From Pelobacter seleniigenes DSM 18267 (GTDB taxonomy: Bacteria; Desulfobacterota; Desulfuromonadia; Desulfuromonadales; Geopsychrobacteraceae), in assembly GCF_000711225.1 (NCBI RefSeq), contig NZ_JOMG01000002.1:1500501-1564500 (forward strand): a stretch of 64,000 bases of DNA, read 5' to 3'. Position 1 is the first letter of the stretch; each line of letters starts with the position of its first letter. The notes beneath the pieces are model-generated. The model worked only from the letters and a program-made list of their open reading frames with translations, had not been told where the DNA came from and did not search any database. Position numbers and translations under genes: made by a program. Shown here piece after piece: positions 12,374-33,569 of the stretch.

Positions 12374-12526
12374 ATGTCTAAGCGTACGTTCCAACCGAGC
12401 CGGATTAAAAGAAAGCGGACTCACGGTTTCAGAAAGAAGATGCAGACTAAAAATGGTCGCCAGACCCTTAGTAGGCGTCGGGCTCGTGGTCGGAAATCTC
12501 TTACCGTTTCCGTTCCACATAAATAA
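12374..12526 (+). CDS. rpmH: 50S ribosomal protein L34
   Basis: A 50-codon frame encodes [20 protein letters not shown] and continues with the Arg/Lys-rich sequence typical of L34, ending SVPHK. L34 is the smallest protein of the large ribosomal subunit. GGAGG at 12363-12367 lies seven bases before the ATG. The stop is followed after three bases by the rnpA start, the standard rpmH-rnpA arrangement next to dnaA. The protein is slightly longer than the usual 44-46 residues because of a C-terminal SLTVSVPHK extension. Confidence 0.97.
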
Positions 12527-12529
12527 TAG

Positions 12530-12862
12530 ATGGATGCATCTTTCCCCGGTTGTTTAAGAATTAGAAAATCGTGGGAATTCAGATTGATTAATAAAATGGG
12601 GTGTAAAATTTATGCACCCCATTTTATTCTCTTCAAGCTTCCTTCTAGTGCAAACAGTGCGCGTTTAGGGATTACTGCGAGTTCGAAAGTTGGAAACGCA
12701 GTACAAAGAAACCGAATTAAGAGGCTTATCAGAGAATACTTTCGAAAAAATATTTTTTCTCTTGATAAGTTGGATTATTCTGTCATTGTCAGAAGAGGCG
12801 TCTCACAAGTATCGTCGAAAATAATATTTGACGAGCTTCATCATATATTTACAAAGAAATAA
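12530..12862 (+). CDS. rnpA: Ribonuclease P protein component
   Basis: RnpA is the basic protein partner of the RNase P RNA in tRNA 5' maturation. The 110-residue product carries the family signature [12 protein letters not shown] (about residues 61-72) preceded by KVGNAVQ. The start ATG at 12530 is three bases after the rpmH stop, suggesting coupled translation. Composition shifts to A+T-rich from here. The RNase P RNA gene was not seen in this window. Confidence 0.93.
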
Positions 12863-12864
12863 TA

Positions 12865-13110
12865 ATGGTTAAGCAATTCTTTGTTTTTCTTATAGATATT
12901 TATAGATATCTTATATCCCCACTTACCCCCAGAAGTTGTCGCTTTTATCCTTCCTGTTCTTCCTATGCAAAAGATTCTATATTAAGATTTGGGGCTGTAA
13001 AGGGTTTGTTTTTATCTATAAGAAGATTATTAAAGTGTCATCCTTTCCATCCAGGTGGTTACGACCCTGTACCGTCAATTCAGAAACAGGATATTTATAA
13101 TGGAAAATAA
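12865..13110 (+). CDS. yidD: Membrane protein insertion efficiency factor YidD
   Basis: The 81-residue protein matches the YidD family: an N-terminal hydrophobic/amphipathic helix ([17 protein letters not shown]), then [15 protein letters not shown] and [12 protein letters not shown] with the three conserved cysteines. It assists YidC/Sec-dependent insertion at the inner membrane. It starts two bases after rnpA and overlaps the start of yidC by 11 bp. Confidence 0.94.
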
Positions 13111-14692
13111 TAGAACTATTTTGGCTATAGTACTTATTGTATTACTTTGGTCTGGGTACAGTTTATTTTTTGCCCCGTCTCGCCAGCCTGTTAAAAATAA
13201 TGATTCGGTGCAGGAGGCGACCACTGCAAATCAAGATATTAAGAAGGATATTAGTTCTGAGAAGGTAGATAAAAATTTTAATATTCCAACAACTGATGAA
13301 AAAGTTGTGTCAAAAAATATTCGAGTATCAAATGATCTTTTTGATATTTCTATTTCAACAGAAGGAGGGTCTGTTGATTCCATAATTTTAAAAAAATATA
13401 AAGAAACTAATTCTAAAAATTCTGATTTATATAGTTTGTTTTCAAGTAAAAACTTTCACGGTAATTCTTTTATAAATTATGGGTCTGATGAGTTTTATTT
13501 TCCTAGCAATTTAAATTATTCTGTTAATGGACCTGACAATATTACTATCGATAATAAATTTGACGTTGTTTTTACAGCTGAATACAAGAATTTAAAAATA
13601 GATAAAATATATACTTTTTATAAAGACAGATACTCTTTTGATTTAAAGGTTATAATCACTAATTTAAGTAATAATGATATTTCTGGCAATATTTTTACTT
13701 ATTTATATCATCCCATTGATACTGATGCAAAAAAGGAAATGTATTCTTTTACAGGTCCGGTCACTTTATATCAAGGTAAGTTACAAGAAGATAAAATTAA
13801 GAATATAGAAGAAAAATCAATTTCTTATAATGGTGATTTTAGTTGGTCTGGATTTACAACTAAATACTTTATGATTGCTGCTGCGCCTAGTAAGAATATT
13901 GAAGATGTCAATATATCACCCCAATATGATGGGATTATTAATAATTTTAGTAGTAATAATCTTAAATTAGGTGCAGGGGGATCAAGTCAAATTGATTTTA
14001 CCTTTTATGCCGGACCTAAGATGTATGAAGATCTGGCTGTCAGTGGTAATAAATTTGAAGAAGTTATTCATTTTGGTTTTTTCCATCCTTTGGCTAAGCC
14101 ATTGATGGTTATCCTCAAATTCTTTTATGGTTTCCTGGGTAATTATGGTTTTTCTATTATTTTATTGACTATCTGTATTAAGCTGCTTTTTTGGCCTTTG
14201 ACTCAAAAGAGTTATAAATCCATGAAAGGCATGCAGAAACTGCAGCCGGAGATGAAGAGGTTGCGGGACAAGTTTGGCTCAGATAAGCAGCGTCTCAATC
14301 AGGAGATGATGAAATTTTATAAAGACCATAAGGTTAATCCTTTGGGCGGCTGTTTGCCTATGGTGATTCAGATTCCGGTGTTTTTTGCGCTTTACCGCGT
14401 GCTGCTCGGCTCCATTGAACTGCGCCATGCTCCTTTTATCCTTTGGATTACAGATTTGTCTGCAAAAGACCCTTATTATGTAACGCCTTTGATTATGGGA
14501 GTTACAATGTTCCTGCAGCAAAAAATGACTCCAACCAATATGGATCCGACTCAGGCTAAAATTATGCTGTTGATGCCGGTCGTTTTTACCTTTATGTTTC
14601 TTAATTTTCCTTCCGGTCTTGTGGTATATTGGCTTGTGAATAACCTTTTGACTATTTTGCAGCAATATCTGATTAAGCGCCAACCTGATTGA
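13100..14692 (+). CDS. yidC: Membrane protein insertase YidC
   Basis: The 530-residue inner-membrane insertase has an N-terminal transmembrane helix ([17 protein letters not shown]), a large periplasmic beta domain (about 50-330) and the conserved insertase core of five further helices (for example [20 protein letters not shown] and [17 protein letters not shown]). I use ATG 13100, inside the end of yidD, rather than the longer frame to 13055. Composition changes within the gene: the periplasmic part is very A+T-rich, whereas the insertase core from about 14060 is much richer in G+C. The R3H protein Jag, often next to yidC, is absent. Confidence 0.96.
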
Positions 14693-22534: not shown

Positions 22535-24049
<1,515 letters not shown>

Positions 24050-24069
24050 TTGCCTAAAAGGTTGAACAG

Positions 24070-24939
24070 ATGCCCAGTCTGAAAGACATCAAAAAAAGGA
24101 TCAGCTCGGTTAAAAATACCCAGCAGATCACCAAAGCGATGAAAATGGTGGCAGCGGCTAAATTGCGGCGTGCCCAGGAGGCTGCCGTTGCGGCTCGCCC
24201 CTATGCGGAGAAAATGCACACGGTGCTTTCCCATCTGGCCATGCGCGAAGAGGCCGAAGCTCATCCGCTTTTAAACCAGCGTGGTACAAGGCGCGCCCTG
24301 GTGGTCTTGATGACTGCTGATCGCGGCTTGTGTGGAGGTTTTAACGCCAACGTTTCCAAAGAAGCGGAGCGCTACATTCGTCGCAACGAAGAGGGCTACG
24401 ACGCTATCGACCTGATGATTATCGGTCGGAAAGGGCGCGATTTTCTCAAAAGCCGGCTCGGCGATAAAATCGTCAAGGTCTATGAGAATATCACCACGGA
24501 TGCAACCTATAAAACGGCTCAGCTTATTGGCGAAGAGGTCATCAGCAAATATACCGATGAAACCTATGACGCTGTCTTCCTGCTCTACAATGCTTTTCAG
24601 AGCGCCATTGTACAAAATGTTACCTTTGAGCAGGTTTTGCCGATTAAGCCGGATGATTCTATGGATATTAATGAATCAGCGGTCGATTATCTCTATGAGC
24701 CAAACCGGGCGGTCGTGCTTGGTGAAATCCTCCCGAAAATGGTTGAGGTGCAATTATTCCGCGGACTTTTGGAATCGAATGCGTCCGAGCAGGGAGCCCG
24801 GATGTCGGCCATGGACAGTGCCAGCAGGAATGCCGCTGAAATGATTGGTAAGCTGACTCTGCAGTATAACCGTGCCCGGCAGGCCGCGATTACCACAGAA
24901 TTGATGGAGATTATTTCCGGCGCCGAATCGATTAAATAA
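24070..24939 (+). CDS. atpG: F-type ATP synthase subunit gamma
   Basis: The 289-residue gamma subunit is the rotating central shaft. It has the conserved N-terminal helix ([20 protein letters not shown] pattern beginning at residue 9), the DRGLCGGFN motif and the C-terminal helix ending [10 protein letters not shown]. The start ATG 24070 is 20 bp after atpA, and a 62-bp gap precedes atpD. Confidence 0.97.
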
Positions 24940-24980
24940 CAAAGAGATTTTACTTTTTACATAGGCTTATTCCGTTGTGA

Positions 24981-26411
<1,431 letters not shown>

Positions 26412-26449
26412 AAGTCCGATCGGCTTAACTCGCATAAAGGAACGTTCTG

Positions 26450-26860
26450 ATGGCAGAAAAATTAACTCTGGAAATGGTTACCCCTTACAAAAAGGTCCTG
26501 TCGGAAGAGGTCGATGAATTGACCGCCCCTGGTTTCATGGGCGAACTCGGCATTCTTCCCGGGCATACGCCCCTGCTGACAACATTGAAGGTTGGCGAAC
26601 TTTCCTATCGCAAGGGGCAGGAACTGTTCCATGTTGCTGTAAACTGGGGTTATCTGGAAGTCGAAGAAGACAAGGTCACGGTTTTGGTCGATACCGCGGA
26701 AAAAGCTGATGAAATCGATCTGAACCGGGCCAAAGCCGCCCTGGGGCGGGCAGAAAGCGCATTGAAAACCCTCTCCGAGGATGATAAGCAGCACGCCGTC
26801 ATGGAAGCGGCTTTGCAGCGGGCTCTGATTCGGATTCAGGTTGCCAGCAGGAACCAATAG
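26450..26860 (+). CDS. atpC: F-type ATP synthase subunit epsilon
   Basis: The 136-residue epsilon subunit has the N-terminal beta sandwich (GFMGELGILPGHTPLLT) and the two-helix C-terminal domain (NRAKAALGRAESAL) that can inhibit ATP hydrolysis. It closes the operon; a strong hairpin follows 25 bp after its stop. Confidence 0.95.
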   Translation: MAEKLTLEMVTPYKKVLSEEVDELTAPGFMGELGILPGHTPLLTTLKVGELSYRKGQELFHVAVNWGYLEVEEDKVTVLVDTAEKADEIDLNRAKAALGRAESALKTLSEDDKQHAVMEAALQRALIRIQVASRNQ

Positions 26861-27269: not shown

Positions 27270-28679
27270 ATGGCCGAGATTCTGATTGTCGATGATGACG
27301 AGATGATGTGTTCAACGTTGTCTGCGCTGGTAACGCGCAAAGGCCACGCTGCGCTTTCGGCCATGACCTTGAAACAGGCCCTGGCAATGACAGAGCAAGG
27401 GCAATTTGATGTAGTTTTTCTCGATGTCCAGATGCCTGACGGAAATGGTTTGGATGCTTTGCCGGCCATTGAGATGAGCCCTTCCAAACCTGAAGTTATC
27501 ATCATGACTGGCTACGGAGATCCCAACGGCGCGGAACTGGCCATAAAAAGCGGGGCATGGGACTACATTGAAAAAGGTTTTTCCATCAAAGAGATTACCC
27601 TTTCCCTGGAAAGGGCACTGCAGTACCGCAAAGAAAAACTAGAGGTTGTCCGTCATCGCAAACCGGTATCGTTGAAACGGGACGGAATCATTGGCAGCAG
27701 TCCGGCCCTGTTGAGTTGTCTCGACCAGGTGGCGCAAGCCGCCGCCAGTGACGCCAATGTGTTCATCACCGGAGAGACCGGGACCGGCAAGGAGCTGATT
27801 GCCCGCGCGGTTCATGACAACAGTCAACGCAGGCAGGAAAATTTTGTTGTGGTCGACTGTACCTCTCTACCGGAAACCCTGGTCGAAAGTCTGCTGTTTG
27901 GACATGAAAAGGGGGCCTTTACCGGTGCCGACAGGGCACAGGACGGCTTGGTTCTACAGGCCCATAAAGGGACCTTGTTTCTCGATGAGGTCGGCGAGCT
28001 GCCTCCAGTATTACAAAAAGCCTTTCTTCGCGTGCTGCAGGAACGGCGCTTCCGCCCCCTCGGGCAGAGTAAGGAAAAAACCAGCGATTTTCGTCTCATT
28101 GCCGCAACCAACCGGGATCTTGACGCCATGGTTGAGGCCGGTCGTTTTCGTAGTGATCTGCTGTTTCGGTTGCGCTCTTTTGTTATCGAGTTGCCGCCGT
28201 TGCGGGAGCGGATGGAAGATATCCACATTCTTACCAGGCATTATGTGGATAAGTTTTGTGCCCGCTATGGCATGCCCTCCAAGGGGTTTGCACCGGAATT
28301 TCTCGAAATGCTGAGTCTTTACCCATGGCCGGGGAATGTCCGCGAACTGGTCAACACCCTGGAACGGGCCTTGGCCGCCGCCCATTTTGATCAGACACTT
28401 TATTCCAAACATTTGCCCAGCCACATTCGGGTCCATGTCCGCCGCGCGGAAATGGAAAATTCATCAACCGAGAAAAATGACCTGAACCTGAATGTTAGCG
28501 ACATACCAAAATTGCAGGATTTCCGAGAAGCTATCTATCAACAGGCCGAGAATGAATATCTGTTGAAATTGATGGCAACCAGCGCCGACGATATCCCCGC
28601 GGCCTGCCGGATTTCCGGACTCTCCCAATCACGGCTGTATGCGCTGCTGAAAAAACACGGTATTGCCAGGAAGAATTGA
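27270..28679 (+). CDS. Sigma-54-dependent response regulator (NtrC family), BccR-like
   Basis: The 469-residue protein has a receiver domain (acidic cluster D8-D10, phospho-acceptor D52 in FLDVQMPDG), an AAA+ domain with GETGTGKELIARAVH, an intact GAFTGA loop (GHEKGAFTGADRAQ), Walker B LFLDEVGELPP, both arginine-finger positions (GRFRSDLLFRL) and PWPGNVREL, and a C-terminal Fis-type helix-turn-helix (AACRISGLSQSRLYALL). It should activate sigma-54 promoters when phosphorylated. No histidine kinase lies nearby. In Geobacter sulfurreducens, as I recall, the regulator BccR controls cbcBA; this gene has the matching position and type. Likely targets are the promoters at 28861 and 30159. Confidence 0.9.
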   Translation: MAEILIVDDDEMMCSTLSALVTRKGHAALSAMTLKQALAMTEQGQFDVVFLDVQMPDGNGLDALPAIEMSPSKPEVIIMTGYGDPNGAELAIKSGAWDYIEKGFSIKEITLSLERALQYRKEKLEVVRHRKPVSLKRDGIIGSSPALLSCLDQVAQAAASDANVFITGETGTGKELIARAVHDNSQRRQENFVVVDCTSLPETLVESLLFGHEKGAFTGADRAQDGLVLQAHKGTLFLDEVGELPPVLQKAFLRVLQERRFRPLGQSKEKTSDFRLIAATNRDLDAMVEAGRFRSDLLFRLRSFVIELPPLRERMEDIHILTRHYVDKFCARYGMPSKGFAPEFLEMLSLYPWPGNVRELVNTLERALAAAHFDQTLYSKHLPSHIRVHVRRAEMENSSTEKNDLNLNVSDIPKLQDFREAIYQQAENEYLLKLMATSADDIPAACRISGLSQSRLYALLKKHGIARKN

Positions 28680-28860: not shown

Positions 28861-28876
28861 TGGCATGACAGATGCT
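28861..28876 (+). promoter_or_regulatory. Sigma-54 promoter before the AAA+ gene
   Basis: TGGCATGACAGATGCT has the invariant GG and GC dinucleotides with exactly ten bases between. The -24 half is good (TGGCA), the -12 half weaker (ATGC instead of TTGC). The downstream gene starts 65 bp later. An A-rich tract immediately precedes it, as at the 30159 promoter. Confidence 0.6.
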
Positions 28877-28940: not shown

Positions 28941-29879
28941 ATGAGGAAGAGCAACAAAGGGCATAACGCAGGAGTAACTGCGCTGCTGCAACAATTGGGG
29001 GAAGGGCGGGATTGTCTTGAAAAGGCCATGGCCTTGCTGGAGAATCTGAGCCTGAAAAGCGAGATTCCGGGAATCAGCGCTGAAGATATTGAATATACCC
29101 TGGACGGCTCGGTCCTGATCCTCAGAAGAACGAACACAGCGCAACAGCAGCGGCCGGCCGGCGCGCCACGAATCATCGCGGAAAATGGCAAAACCCGGTT
29201 GGCTCTTGGAATCGCTGAAAAAATGGCTCAGGGGGATGAAAATGTCATCATCCAAGGGGAAACCGGAACCGGGAAAGACCTGTTTGCGCGCTATATCCAT
29301 CTGGTCGGAAGCAGATCTGTGGAACCGTTTGTCTGGTGTCCCTGCGGCACCGGCTTTGGAATACGGCAGTTGGAGGATACCTTTCAACAGGTGGGTCATG
29401 GCACGTTGTTGCTGGACGATGTGAATGATCTCGAGAGTTCGGGGCAAGGGGAATTGTTAAAAATATTGACCGCGAGCTCAGGCCGAAGAGAGTTCCGAAT
29501 CATTTCCACCACCAGCTGTGAGCTGGACGCCCTGGCCTCAAAAGGGCAGTTTTCAGACGCTCTGTTGGATCTGTTACGGGGGTGTTTCGTTGAATTACCT
29601 GCGCTCCGTGACCGGAAGGAGGATATCATTCCATTGGCGCGCCATCATTTGCCATTGCTTTGCCAGAAAAACAAACTTCCCGCAAAACAGATGTCACCGG
29701 AATATCTGCAGCTATGTGAACTATATCCATGGCCCGGCAATGTCAGGGAACTGATTAATGTTCTGGAACAATCACTTTACACCGCGGGGGACAAGAAGAC
29801 CCTTTTCGGAAGAGATCTACCGACCCATGTCCGTATTCAGACGGCCAAGGGCGCGGCTCAAAGAAAAAAAGGTTTGTAG
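28941..29879 (+). CDS. Degenerate sigma-54-activator-like AAA+ protein lacking GAFTGA and DNA-binding domain
   Basis: The 312-residue protein is related to the central domain of the neighbouring regulator: Walker A GETGTGKDLFARYIH, Walker B GTLLLDDVNDL and the PWPGNVREL segment are intact. However, the stretch between Walker A and B is shortened and has no GAFTGA loop, so it should not engage sigma-54. The two catalytic arginines of FRxDLxxRL are replaced (GQFSDALLDLL). The protein stops just before where the Fis helix-turn-helix would begin, and a unique segment of about 80 residues replaces the receiver. It may bind ATP and modulate the full-length activator by mixed oligomers; that is inference. 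ATG 28941 follows AAGG. Confidence 0.8.
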   Translation: MRKSNKGHNAGVTALLQQLGEGRDCLEKAMALLENLSLKSEIPGISAEDIEYTLDGSVLILRRTNTAQQQRPAGAPRIIAENGKTRLALGIAEKMAQGDENVIIQGETGTGKDLFARYIHLVGSRSVEPFVWCPCGTGFGIRQLEDTFQQVGHGTLLLDDVNDLESSGQGELLKILTASSGRREFRIISTTSCELDALASKGQFSDALLDLLRGCFVELPALRDRKEDIIPLARHHLPLLCQKNKLPAKQMSPEYLQLCELYPWPGNVRELINVLEQSLYTAGDKKTLFGRDLPTHVRIQTAKGAAQRKKGL

Positions 29880-30158: not shown

Positions 30159-30174
30159 TGGTATGCAGGTTGCT
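30159..30174 (+). promoter_or_regulatory. Sigma-54 promoter of the cytochrome operon
   Basis: TGGTATGCAGGTTGCT carries GG and GC ten bases apart with a perfect TTGCT at -12. Transcription should begin near 30185, giving a leader of about 35 bases before the first small membrane-protein gene (30219). The following genes up to 33569 run in one direction with short gaps and are probably in this operon. Confidence 0.75.
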
Positions 30175-30218: not shown

Positions 30219-30455
30219 ATGAAACGAAAAAAATTCTACAGGTTGGCCGCTGTCGGTGTCGCAATCATTGTTGCGGGTTTGTTCATGTTCTGTGATCTGG
30301 GGCTCGGATTCTCGCCGATCATGAAATTCTTTGTGGTCTTTTTCGGCTTGATCATCGGTCTTCAATGTATCCCCGCGGTTTTGATGTTTATCGGCATGCT
30401 GAAAGGTATTGCGCCGCAGACCAGAACCAAGGTGATCGACCATAGCGGGCGCTAG
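30219..30455 (+). CDS. Small two-helix membrane protein, first of a paralogous pair
   Basis: The 78-residue protein has a basic start (MKRKKFYR), a first transmembrane helix (about 9-27) and a second (about 33-60), with a short basic tail. Its second helix, GLIIGLQCIPAVLMFIGMLKGI, shares the pattern GLIIxLQxxPxxxxxxGxxKGI with the product of 30929-31177, so the two are paralogues. AGGAG precedes the ATG. It is the first gene after the sigma-54 promoter. The function is unknown; as part of a cytochrome operon it may be an accessory or regulatory subunit of the membrane complex. Confidence 0.75.
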   Translation: MKRKKFYRLAAVGVAIIVAGLFMFCDLGLGFSPIMKFFVVFFGLIIGLQCIPAVLMFIGMLKGIAPQTRTKVIDHSGR

Positions 30456-30473
30456 AAAAGAACGGAGTCACAT

Positions 30474-30863
30474 ATGAGAGCGCGAAAAGTGTTGATAGCG
30501 GATCGTGATGAAAAGGCGAGAACGAAATTGGCCGAATTCTTTGAGAATTCGAATTATGACGTGGAAACAACCGGCTCCGCAGCCTATGCGATTGCCAAGA
30601 TTGTTCAGAAGCAGGAGCCGATCGTTATCCTTGGGGATGCATTTGAAGAAAAAATTGCCTCCGTGGATGTCATCGCCCTGATGCGGAAGTGCAATAAAAA
30701 CCTGAAGATCATTCTGATTTCGGATGACAGCTCGCTAGAAACGCTCCGTCGCATTCGTAAAGATGGCATCTTTTACCACGCTTTGAAGCCACATGATTCT
30801 GAAGATAATGAAGAGCTGCGTTCCGTCGTCGAATGCGCGGTGGAGGGTTTTCAGCCTGTTTAG
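30474..30863 (+). CDS. Stand-alone receiver-like protein
   Basis: The 129-residue protein has a CheY-like outline: VLIADRDEKAR supplies the acidic residues after strand 1, IVILGDAFEEK lies at strand 3, IILISDD gives the Ser/Thr position, and HALKPHD gives the conserved Lys-Pro. The likely phospho-acceptor Asp is shifted by one residue relative to the usual LLD pattern, so phosphorylation is uncertain. There is no output domain. It sits between the two paralogous membrane proteins with gaps of 18 and 65 bp. CGGAG lies upstream of the ATG. Confidence 0.75.
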   Translation: MRARKVLIADRDEKARTKLAEFFENSNYDVETTGSAAYAIAKIVQKQEPIVILGDAFEEKIASVDVIALMRKCNKNLKIILISDDSSLETLRRIRKDGIFYHALKPHDSEDNEELRSVVECAVEGFQPV

Positions 30864-30928
30864 CAGGGAAAAATAACCATTCGGCCTGCTGGCCGAGCAG
30901 TGATCGATTGCATGAAAGGGGTACCGCA

Positions 30929-31177
30929 ATGAAAAGAAAATATCAACAATGCCTCACCACGATTCTTGTTCTGGTTGCCGCAATGCCGGCTATCGCTGCG
31001 GAAACTGCCGCACGTCAGGATGACAGTATGACCCTGGTCTATCTGTTCCTGGCGACCTGTGGGTTAATCATTGTGCTGCAACTACTGCCGGTGTTCACCC
31101 TGGTCTATGGGCTGATCAAGGGAATCTTCGGCAAGCGTCAGGAGCAGCAAAAACCGCTCCCGGTCAAAAACAGGTAA
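30929..31177 (+). CDS. Small membrane protein with signal segment, second of a paralogous pair
   Basis: The 82-residue protein starts at ATG 30929 behind AAAGGGG; the longer frame from 30833 overlaps the previous gene and is not used. It has an N-terminal hydrophobic signal-like segment (LTTILVLVAAMPAIAAETAA, possible cleavage after AIA) and one helix, GLIIVLQLLPVFTLVYGLIKGI, matching the second helix of the 30219 product. The tail is basic and Gln-rich. It precedes the seven-heme cytochrome gene by 62 bp. Confidence 0.75.
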   Translation: MKRKYQQCLTTILVLVAAMPAIAAETAARQDDSMTLVYLFLATCGLIIVLQLLPVFTLVYGLIKGIFGKRQEQQKPLPVKNR

Positions 31178-31239: not shown

Positions 31240-32298
31240 ATGATCATGAAACCATTGAGCAGGATAAAAATAAAAACATGGCCCCTGCTGTTGCTCCTGT
31301 TTTTCATTCCCGCACCAGTGCCCGCCATGGAGGTGGATGACTGTCTGGGGTGCCACGGTGATGTGGAAATGGTCGGTGCAGACTTGCTGATCAATTTGGA
31401 GAAATACGATCATACAGCCCATGCCCAGATGGGTTGCCTGACTTGTCACGAATCGGTCACCGATGCGCACCCGGATGATGGCGTGGCAGTCACCAAAGCG
31501 GCATGTCTCGATTGTCACGAAGAGGTCGGAGCGCAATACCTGGCCACAAAACACGCTGAATATGCTGCCTGCAAGGATTGTCACAATCCCCATGAGGCGC
31601 AGGGGCTGGCAGCGGTTTCAGCGCCGCAGATGAATCAGCAGTGCGGCACCTGCCATAGCGCGGAGAGTGTGGTGCAGGCCCATCAGGAGTGGTTGCCCCA
31701 GGCTGATCTGCATATCAGTGCATTGCCCTGCATTACCTGTCATACCTCGTCAAAAGGGTACAAAATTGTCCTGAATATCACCCAGAAACAACAACAACGG
31801 GTCTTCGGGGACTATGTGTTTCCCAGCTATGCTGACCTTTCGACTGTGGCTGGTGGAAAGAGCATTCGCTCTTTGATCGATATCAATAATGACAATCTGA
31901 TCTCTTTAGCAGAGCTGAGGACTTTTAACCGGAATCCGAAATACCAGGACCTCAGGCTGGAAGGGACCCTGGTGCCAAGCATGCTGTCCCACGACCTGAG
32001 TACCCTCGAAAGCCGCTATGACTGCACATTCTGTCATGCGTCCGGGCCGAAGAGTCTGCAGACGAGTTTTGTCGCACTGCCACTGCCCGGCGGCAATTAC
32101 GAACAGATTGCGGTGGAGAAGGGCCCAGTCCTGGAAGCCCTGTATGGCACTCCGGACTTTTATATGAGCGGCAGCACCCGCAATGCTTCTCTCAATATTA
32201 TGGGACTGCTGATTATTTGCGCCGGACTGGTCATGCCGATCGGGCATGGAACGCTACGGTTTTTAACCAGAAAAAACCGGCAACATAAAGGGGAATAG
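31240..32298 (+). CDS. cbcA: Seven-heme c-type cytochrome, CbcA-like, with EF-hand loop
   Basis: The 352-residue protein has a signal peptide (cleavage after PVPA, about residue 29) and seven CxxCH heme sites: CLGCH 35, CLTCH 66, CLDCH 89, CKDCH 111, CGTCH 135, CITCH 164 and CTFCH 262. A C-terminal transmembrane helix (about 319-337) anchors it to the inner membrane with the hemes in the periplasm. Between hemes six and seven is a canonical EF-hand loop, DINNDNLISLAEL (214-226). It abuts a b-type cytochrome gene. In Geobacter, CbcA (seven hemes) with CbcB passes electrons from menaquinol to the periplasm during low-potential metal respiration; that role is inferred here from heme count, partner and regulator. 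Confidence 0.85.
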   Translation: MIMKPLSRIKIKTWPLLLLLFFIPAPVPAMEVDDCLGCHGDVEMVGADLLINLEKYDHTAHAQMGCLTCHESVTDAHPDDGVAVTKAACLDCHEEVGAQYLATKHAEYAACKDCHNPHEAQGLAAVSAPQMNQQCGTCHSAESVVQAHQEWLPQADLHISALPCITCHTSSKGYKIVLNITQKQQQRVFGDYVFPSYADLSTVAGGKSIRSLIDINNDNLISLAELRTFNRNPKYQDLRLEGTLVPSMLSHDLSTLESRYDCTFCHASGPKSLQTSFVALPLPGGNYEQIAVEKGPVLEALYGTPDFYMSGSTRNASLNIMGLLIICAGLVMPIGHGTLRFLTRKNRQHKGE

Positions 32299-32300
32299 TC

Positions 32301-32978
32301 ATGAAAAAGAAAAAAAGAGTTTACCTGCAACCGACCCCGGTCAGAATCTGGCATTGGCTCAATGCACTGGGCATCGTGACTTTAATGGTCTCAGGAGCGC
32401 AGATCCGTTTCCCCGAATACATCTCCTGGTTGGGAAGTTACAAATCTGCAATCTACTTGCATAACGCGGCGGGGTATGTGGTTGCCGTTTCCTTCTCGCT
32501 TTGGTTTTTCTACTACCTGTTCATCGCCAGGACCATGGCAAACCTCTATGTCCCCAAAGTGGAGGATCTGAAAACCGGTCTGGTCAAACAGGCGAAATTT
32601 TACTTTCTTACTTACTTTCTGGGCTGGGAGAATCCACATCACCCGACCCCGGAAAACAAGTTCAATCCGTTGCAGAAATCCGCCTACCTGGCAATCATGT
32701 TTGTCCTGGTTCCCTTGGTCAGCCTGTCCGGGATCCTGCTGACCAATGTCGAGCCATTGCGGGGATTGATCGTCATGCTGGGAGGGCTGAAAATTCTGGT
32801 TGGGCTGCATTTCCTGCTCGCCTGCATGCTGATAGCTTTTCTGCCGACCCATATTTACCTGGCAACCCTGGGACATACTCCCATGGAACATATCAAGGCG
32901 ATGTGGACCGGCTGGGACGAAGAGGACGACGAGCGGGAAGAAGACAGTAAGCAGCCGCTACCGAGTCATACCGGTTGA
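32301..32978 (+). CDS. cbcB: Inner-membrane b-type cytochrome, CbcB-like
   Basis: The 225-residue protein has four transmembrane helices with histidines placed for two b hemes: WHWLN (about residue 18), LHNAAGY (54), LHFLL and THIYL in the last helix. This is the cytochrome b561/HydC-FdnI fold that oxidises quinol. The C-terminus is a charged cytoplasmic tail (DEEDDEREEDSKQ). It starts two bases after the seven-heme gene, so the two almost certainly form one quinol-oxidising complex. Confidence 0.87.
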   Translation: MKKKKRVYLQPTPVRIWHWLNALGIVTLMVSGAQIRFPEYISWLGSYKSAIYLHNAAGYVVAVSFSLWFFYYLFIARTMANLYVPKVEDLKTGLVKQAKFYFLTYFLGWENPHHPTPENKFNPLQKSAYLAIMFVLVPLVSLSGILLTNVEPLRGLIVMLGGLKILVGLHFLLACMLIAFLPTHIYLATLGHTPMEHIKAMWTGWDEEDDEREEDSKQPLPSHTG

Positions 32979-33083: not shown

Positions 33084-33569
33084 ATGGCCAGATGTGATAG
33101 AAACAGCATGATACTTAGAACCGGTCCCGGATTCGGGACACGAAACCGGGAATATCAGCTGATGTCGGGTCGGAAATTGCTTGAGGCCATCTTGTTTCTG
33201 CTGCTCAGCATCGGAGCTTTCTGCGGCCGGGAGATCAACCTTTTCCTCCTCGCCCCGGAATCATTCCGCCACATTCTCGGGTATCCGCCTTCGCCAGCTT
33301 TGGTGGATATTGCCCTGGCCGTTTATTGTTTTTCTGCGACTGTGCTGATTTTAACCGGGCTGGCCAGTGGCAACCGCCCAGACCCAGGCTGGAAACATCT
33401 GGGCTACCGCAGTGCTTTTTTCGGGTTTTACTGCTTTTCCGGCAGTATTGCCACACATTTCACGGCCGTAGTTGTGGTCGGGCTGTTTCTTTATCTTCTT
33501 GAGCAAGCCCAGATTTGGTTTTACTGTTGGCAGGCTGCTCATATCGATGATGTGGGTGGGCAGCCTTAG
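33084..33569 (+). CDS. Membrane protein of unknown function in the cytochrome operon
   Basis: The 161-residue protein has a polar N-terminus of about 30 residues and roughly four hydrophobic segments (LLEAILFLLLSIGAF; ALVDIALAVYCFSATVLILTG; FFGFYCFSGSIATHF; VVVVGLFLYLLEQA). A perfect GGAGG precedes ATG 33084. An internal Met at about residue 27 is an alternative start. It is the last rightward gene before a convergent gene 19 bp away, with a 105-bp gap after cbcB. No family is recognised; a role with the cytochrome pair is suggested only by position. Confidence 0.65.
   Translation: MARCDRNSMILRTGPGFGTRNREYQLMSGRKLLEAILFLLLSIGAFCGREINLFLLAPESFRHILGYPPSPALVDIALAVYCFSATVLILTGLASGNRPDPGWKHLGYRSAFFGFYCFSGSIATHFTAVVVVGLFLYLLEQAQIWFYCWQAAHIDDVGGQP

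Follow-up and report, generated by a model that had tools for sequence, protein, structure and literature searches.

A putative sigma-54-driven S1-PsR-S2 accessory module encoded upstream of the CbcBA-type cytochrome locus of Pelobacter seleniigenes

We identified a set of three small genes, S1-PsR-S2, directly preceding a cbcBA locus in a 64,000-nucleotide window of the Pelobacter seleniigenes DSM 18267 genome, the window being the whole stretch of DNA that was analysed. Our preferred reading, which we give an even chance of being right, is that the set forms a sigma-54-driven accessory module in which a membrane adaptor holds a phosphorylation-independent receiver at the inner membrane, serving quinol-cytochrome complexes without being exclusive to them. 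A full-text literature search, outside whose coverage the key CbcBA paper (Joshi 2021) lies, returned no description of the S1-PsR-S2 module. The locus contains the following features:

27270-28679, forward strand: NtrC-type enhancer-binding response regulator (Pfam Response_reg and Sigma54_activat; AAA+ domain with GAFTGA)
28941-29879, forward strand: degenerate AAA+ sigma-54 activator-like protein of 312 aa (Pfam), without receiver and without GAFTGA loop
30159-30174, forward strand: sigma-54 -24/-12 element TGGTATGCAGGTTGCT, score 20.4 of 22
30219-30455, forward strand: S1, small two-helix membrane protein of 78 aa, first of the paralogous pair
30474-30863, forward strand: PsR, stand-alone pseudo-receiver of 129 aa, with Gly in place of the acceptor Asp and the signature GIFYHALKP
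30929-31177, forward strand: S2, small membrane protein of 82 aa with one transmembrane helix besides a signal-like N-terminus, second of the pair
31240-32298, forward strand: CbcA, seven-heme c-type cytochrome (seven CXXCH in the translation; Pfam multiheme matches; seven-heme homologues in relatives)
32301-32978, forward strand: CbcB, b561-type quinol-oxidising membrane subunit (Pfam Ni_hydr_CYTB, E 2.5e-29)
33084-33569, forward strand: membrane protein at the CbcE position ('C161' family, with members at CbcBA-type and CbcSTU-like loci)

The CbcBA assignment rests on the adjacency, within the window, of the genes for a seven-heme c cytochrome and a b561-type subunit. A preliminary description had placed the trio between a sigma-54 promoter and a seven-heme cytochrome, and both its coordinates and the seven CXXCH motifs of CbcA were exact. 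The product of 33084-33569 matched no Pfam family above cut-off and no NCBIfam family, and we infer its naming as CbcE from gene order compared with the table given in PMC10989804. The cbcBA locus lies directly 3′ of an ATP synthase operon (22541-26860). At CbcSTU-like loci a two-helix protein with a CHASE8/Mcp40H-type sensor-domain match (12509-13324 of locus L161) is encoded just before the CbcE-like gene, that is, in the place of CbcD.

The operon combines a predicted sigma-54 element (30159-30174) with a nearby gene for an enhancer-binding activator (27270-28679), as befits a sigma-54-dependent operon, and the product of the latter is the candidate activator; no sensor kinase gene adjoins it in the window, unlike in several relatives. 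Using a home-made consensus score, strong -24/-12 sites (at least 19 of 22) were found upstream of the first S gene in 103 of 146 S cassettes compared with 37 of 920 control regions, taken from other genes with at least 100 bp upstream. By context such sites preceded 25 of 37 CbcA-linked, 12 of 21 5-heme, 2 of 2 11-heme and 64 of 86 stand-alone cassettes, fewer than 0.5 being expected in each context after base shuffling, and the median distance from site to start codon was 50 bp. It is this predicted sigma-54 site that unites the stand-alone and cytochrome-linked S copies. Counterparts of the degenerate activator, about 316-360 aa in length, adjoin the true activator in Desulfuromusa-type loci, and the 28941-29879 product is perhaps a hetero-oligomer partner or an anti-activator. 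A second sigma-54-like element, TGGCATGACAGATGCT (28861-28876), was spotted by eye upstream of its gene.

A profile of 44 S proteins located S-family genes in 204 of the 277 class genomes; in a phylum-wide sample of 395 genomes it had matches in 40, of which 29 lie outside the class. A single genome carries up to 17 copies. A scan with CbcB, blind to S, yielded 80 loci, in which CbcA was called close at 300 bits or more and remote at 110 bits or less. S was encoded upstream in 25 of the 28 close-CbcA loci (24 by script plus L039, where it was masked by an overlong ORF) and PsR in 22, compared with S in none of the 30 loci with remote CbcA-like proteins; 22 loci had no CbcA call. The preliminary description had held that its proposal would fall if the pair did not co-occur with cytochrome b/c genes in other genomes, and the 25 of 28 close cbcBA loci show that they do. 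In a further set of 20 CbcA loci, taken from genome hits regardless of S and apparently sharing several contigs with the first sample, S was found in 14 and PsR in 12; the module is absent from the remaining 6 and is thus apparently dispensable for cbcBA. As raw genome counts that ignore kinship, S was present in 156 of 161 genomes with CbcA and in 48 of 116 genomes without.

The module is also found 5′ of CbcSTU-like loci, where a 5-heme cytochrome is encoded together with a TAT-type 4Fe-4S protein and a membrane subunit of seven to nine helices that matches no Pfam family, and 5′ of loci encoding an 11-heme cytochrome and a b561 subunit. Among 304 S genes surveyed in loci fetched by S or by CbcB, a non-random sample, the multiheme gene close downstream was CbcA in 103, 5-heme-type (4 to 6 hemes) in 44 and 11-heme in 6, while 151 had none. 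This survey rules out a module restricted to cytochromes: since 151 of the 304 S genes stand alone, with the same promoter type (64 of 86), the module is not specific to cytochrome operons. The earlier suggestion of a module for a quinol-oxidising complex therefore survives as regards conservation and co-occurrence and fails as regards cytochrome specificity. No common partner gene was found 3′ of the stand-alone S units, the genes inspected there being unrelated or spurious-looking antisense frames. PsR is missing from many clusters, among them 24 that consist of a plain S1-S2 pair and 22 of a lone S2 gene (cluster counts here and below include repeats, some loci having been fetched twice by different routes), so that PsR is not obligatory.

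Certain Desulfuromusa-type loci carry a tandem second S1-PsR-S2 cassette with the CbcE-like gene between the copies (L033:4187-6894, L034:4068-6895 and L037:344-3301), S1 and PsR lying in one frame in one of the copies. Similar S1-S2-receiver arrays with related sigma-54 sites are scattered in the single genomes G082 and G091 (L149, L151, L155, L156, L157 and L159); no shared neighbours of these arrays were found, and they look like a recent expansion.

The last helices of S1 (...FFGLIIGLQCIPAVLMFIGMLKGI) and S2 (...TCGLIIVLQLLPVFTLVYGLIKGI) can be aligned without gaps, with a local score of 59 that 1 in 5000 shuffles of the whole sequence and 2 in 5000 block shuffles attained, and profile-profile comparison of the two family alignments gave an hhalign probability of 98.4 (E 8.4e-15). 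Judged from their sequences S1 and S2 are homologous, which bears out the paralogy previously proposed from a shared GLII-LQ-P-G-KGI helix. The hydrophobic stretches also agree with the two helices described for S1 and the signal-like segment described for S2: S1 has two such stretches and S2 a signal-like N-terminus followed by one strong stretch. The intramembrane Gln and Pro of the helix are almost invariant in the S family, and a Cys four residues past a conserved Phe is present in 129 of 154 S2 sequences, whereas the eight residues most often found in that column of 123 S1 sequences do not include Cys.

A FastTree tree was constructed from 277 distinct S sequences, whose shortness leaves individual branches weak, 148 of them labelled by position relative to the receiver gene. 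Gene position required 2 changes on this tree compared with 40-58 in 50 shuffles, and a single split (support 84) sorted 141 of the 148 labels correctly. The seven discordant labels (L141, L143, L149, L155, L156, L157 and L159) are regarded here as labelling artefacts rather than true exceptions, since each belongs to the second S of an S-S-receiver array, where it is this second S that stands in front of the receiver. When the genes are typed by the tree, S1 lies ahead of S2 in every one of the 97 clusters that contain both types, and 13 clusters with two S genes contain one type only. Tree and gene order together show S1 and S2, as judged phylogenetically, to be ancient paralogues whose order, S1 before S2, is fixed. 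On the tree, the S2 proteins from CbcA loci part from those of 5-heme loci with 2 changes (15-22 when shuffled) and the corresponding S1 proteins with 6 (14-21 when shuffled). Such separation by complex type would fit S proteins dedicated to one complex, but may reflect no more than their vertical descent together with the operon.

The tracking of complex type by the S lineages also suits another reading, in which S1 and S2 would be true minor subunits of the quinol-cytochrome complex, as small helices are elsewhere in respiratory complexes, and PsR their chaperone. Its case is strengthened by their place in the operon before three kinds of quinone-linked cytochrome locus and by the almost invariant intramembrane Gln and Pro. 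We nevertheless regard it as doubtful, as the module is missing from some complete CbcA loci (3 of 28 in the first sample and 6 of 20 in the second), which disfavours a fixed subunit, and stand-alone copies have no cytochrome neighbour.

PsR matched Pfam Response_reg with 38.3 bits (gathering score 30.2), its structure model has a receiver fold (pLDDT 86), and the model gave 584 matches to the PDB at E <= 0.001, nearly all of the 50 matches listed being receivers or receiver-containing proteins. A match to KaiA_N (PF21714) fell below cut-off (12.6 vs 27 bits). We aligned 95 distinct cassette-borne relatives, in which the acceptor column at the end of strand beta3, occupied by G54 in the window, contains Gly in 73, Ser in 11, Asp in 9 and Ala in 2; the following column, D55 in the window, contains Asp in 23 of the 95. 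The preliminary description had regarded PsR as receiver-like with an off-register acceptor Asp. Its likeness to receivers holds, but the register does not: pairwise alignment with Spo0F placed D55 on the acceptor, and this is contradicted by the family alignment, in which nine relatives retain Asp in the G54 column. The window PsR is better described as having lost its acceptor than as carrying an off-register Asp, at least as its relatives align. The second acidic residue has also been lost in most PsR proteins, while two Cys residues are near-invariant (C73 in 81 and C121 in 87 of the 95).

The active-site loops of PsR are poorly conserved, at 2.06 and 2.38 bits, when set against those of 17 activator receivers encoded at the same loci, which reach 3.05 and 3.07. 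Within PsR conservation is highest at alpha4-beta5 (3.86 and 3.58 bits) and weakest at alpha1 (1.73), and from this pattern, low at the active-site loops and alpha1 and high at alpha4-beta5, we read PsR as a putative phosphorylation-independent binding module. S1 and PsR share one open frame in seven Desulfuromusa-type loci (A6), as do PsR and S2 in others (e.g. L112, L115, L117, L118, L122, L162, L163 and L164). Simple fusion was rejected as an account of these joins, most of which retain an internal ATG with a Shine-Dalgarno sequence, so that separate products are likely too and both joined and separate forms are possible. Given conventional helix insertion, the joins would put PsR on the cytoplasmic side. 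The structure model of a natural S1=PsR join had a pLDDT of 45, too low for use.

In receivers alpha1 is usually the kinase-docking element. A membrane-held PsR could act as a negative-feedback decoy, competing with the receiver of the activator for the sensor kinase and so limiting expression of the cytochrome operon, and this would accord with its receiver-like character, with a kinase and an NtrC-type activator adjoining the module in many loci and with the module standing first in the operon to be limited. The least conserved element of PsR is however alpha1, which makes kinase feedback less favoured; in addition the window has no kinase gene directly beside the activator, and stand-alone and PsR-less copies are common, and we consider such a decoy unlikely.

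Neither S1 nor S2 belongs to a Pfam or NCBIfam family above cut-off in a scan of 44 S members. Low-scoring, sub-threshold matches, inconsistent among the 44, were obtained to BRANT, SCO4225, Tetraspanin and ATP synthase b, and all four were rejected: the SCO4225 membrane protein (NF046119) matched S2 only (19.1 bits vs a cut-off of 33), and the His-rich protein BRANT (NF047414) matched 2 of 44 members at E 0.1, one of which, scanned singly, reached 25.4 of the 44 bits needed. The PspC model reached E 0.43 with S1 only. A general envelope or proton-motive-force stress module of phage-shock-like logic, brought into operons that serve close to the energy limit, is very improbable: stand-alone units under sigma-54 sites (64 of 86), up to 17 copies per genome and the description of CbcBA as an inner-membrane route near the energetic limit of metal respiration, near -0.2 V (PMC12307469), speak for it, whereas PspB, PspC and PspG found no match among the 44 S members at E 0.1 and the module has no PspA-like partner.

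For the membrane adaptor that we prefer, the biochemical role envisaged at the cytochrome complex begins with the activator, which would turn the operon on so that S1-PsR-S2 is made first. S1 and S2 would enter the membrane as short helices, their C-termini on the cytoplasmic side, and may associate via their conserved F-C/F-Q-P face, and PsR would dock on the cytoplasmic side of S1/S2 through its alpha4-beta5-alpha5 surface with no need of phosphorylation. The module could then, as a membrane adaptor, assist or meter the quinol-cytochrome complex encoded behind it, by way of assembly, placement or expression feedback, and stand-alone copies may perform the same service for other sigma-54-controlled membrane functions encoded elsewhere. 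A bolder version, which we offer tentatively and hold to be somewhat more likely wrong than right, is that the paralogous membrane proteins S1 and S2 make up an obligate heteromer presenting a phosphorylation-independent receiver, an unnamed signalling module of the class and parts of the phylum that has been multiply duplicated under sigma-54 and is a common control or assembly unit before at least three kinds of quinone-cytochrome complex.

We take GSU0594 of G. sulfurreducens to be cbcA, in which case GSU0597, GSU0596 and GSU0595 presumably correspond to S1, PsR and S2, an assumption based on gene order and the annotations reported with the gsu1771 mutant. In that mutant GSU0596 ('response receiver') and GSU0597 ('hypothetical') co-vary with GSU2750-2751 (dcuB), GSU3409 and GSU3410 (PMC10599522). 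A published list of the RpoN regulon includes GSU2750-2751 and gives a predicted promoter score for them (PMC2725144), and GSU0597 is down to 0.15 in a csrA mutant (PMC11934962). GSU3410 is the namesake of protein family 43, with ten members in six Geobacter genomes (PMC2825233, Table 2), and is referred to as a multi-copy 'putative membrane protein' (PMC6520446). The tables of PMC10989804 name CbcA-E and CbcSTU, and the S1, PsR and S2 genes are not among the names in those tables.

Throughout a large group of bacteria that respire metals the unnamed trio is found again, behind promoters of one type. If a conserved additional module is produced ahead of CbcBA and has relatives in most of the class's genomes, models of the way in which these bacteria choose, build or throttle their quinol-oxidising complexes would be lacking a component. 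As the stand-alone copies share the promoter type, a sizeable and so far unexplained portion of the sigma-54 regulon is marked by the S module.

The window shares with the Geobacter CbcBA/CbcABCDE system a seven-heme CbcA, a b561-type CbcB and then a CbcE-like membrane protein. Relative to CbcABCDE, for which the table of PMC10989804 lists A to E, it adds S1, PsR and S2 and has no CbcC or CbcD in the interval from cbcB to the CbcE-like gene. The GSU3410 family, compared by description only, resembles the S family in comprising multi-copy membrane proteins, and GSU3410 co-varies with GSU0596/GSU0597. With receivers and pseudo-receivers (PF00072) PsR has in common its fold and a profile match, but most PsR proteins differ from PF00072 receivers in having neither the acceptor Asp nor the second acidic residue and in possessing the GIFYHALKP signature and two near-invariant Cys residues of their own. 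In the Psp system small membrane proteins are produced under PspF and sigma-54. The S module follows a like logic, with short inner-membrane proteins behind a sigma-54 promoter, although the S family has no sequence match to Psp and a receiver stands in place of PspA.
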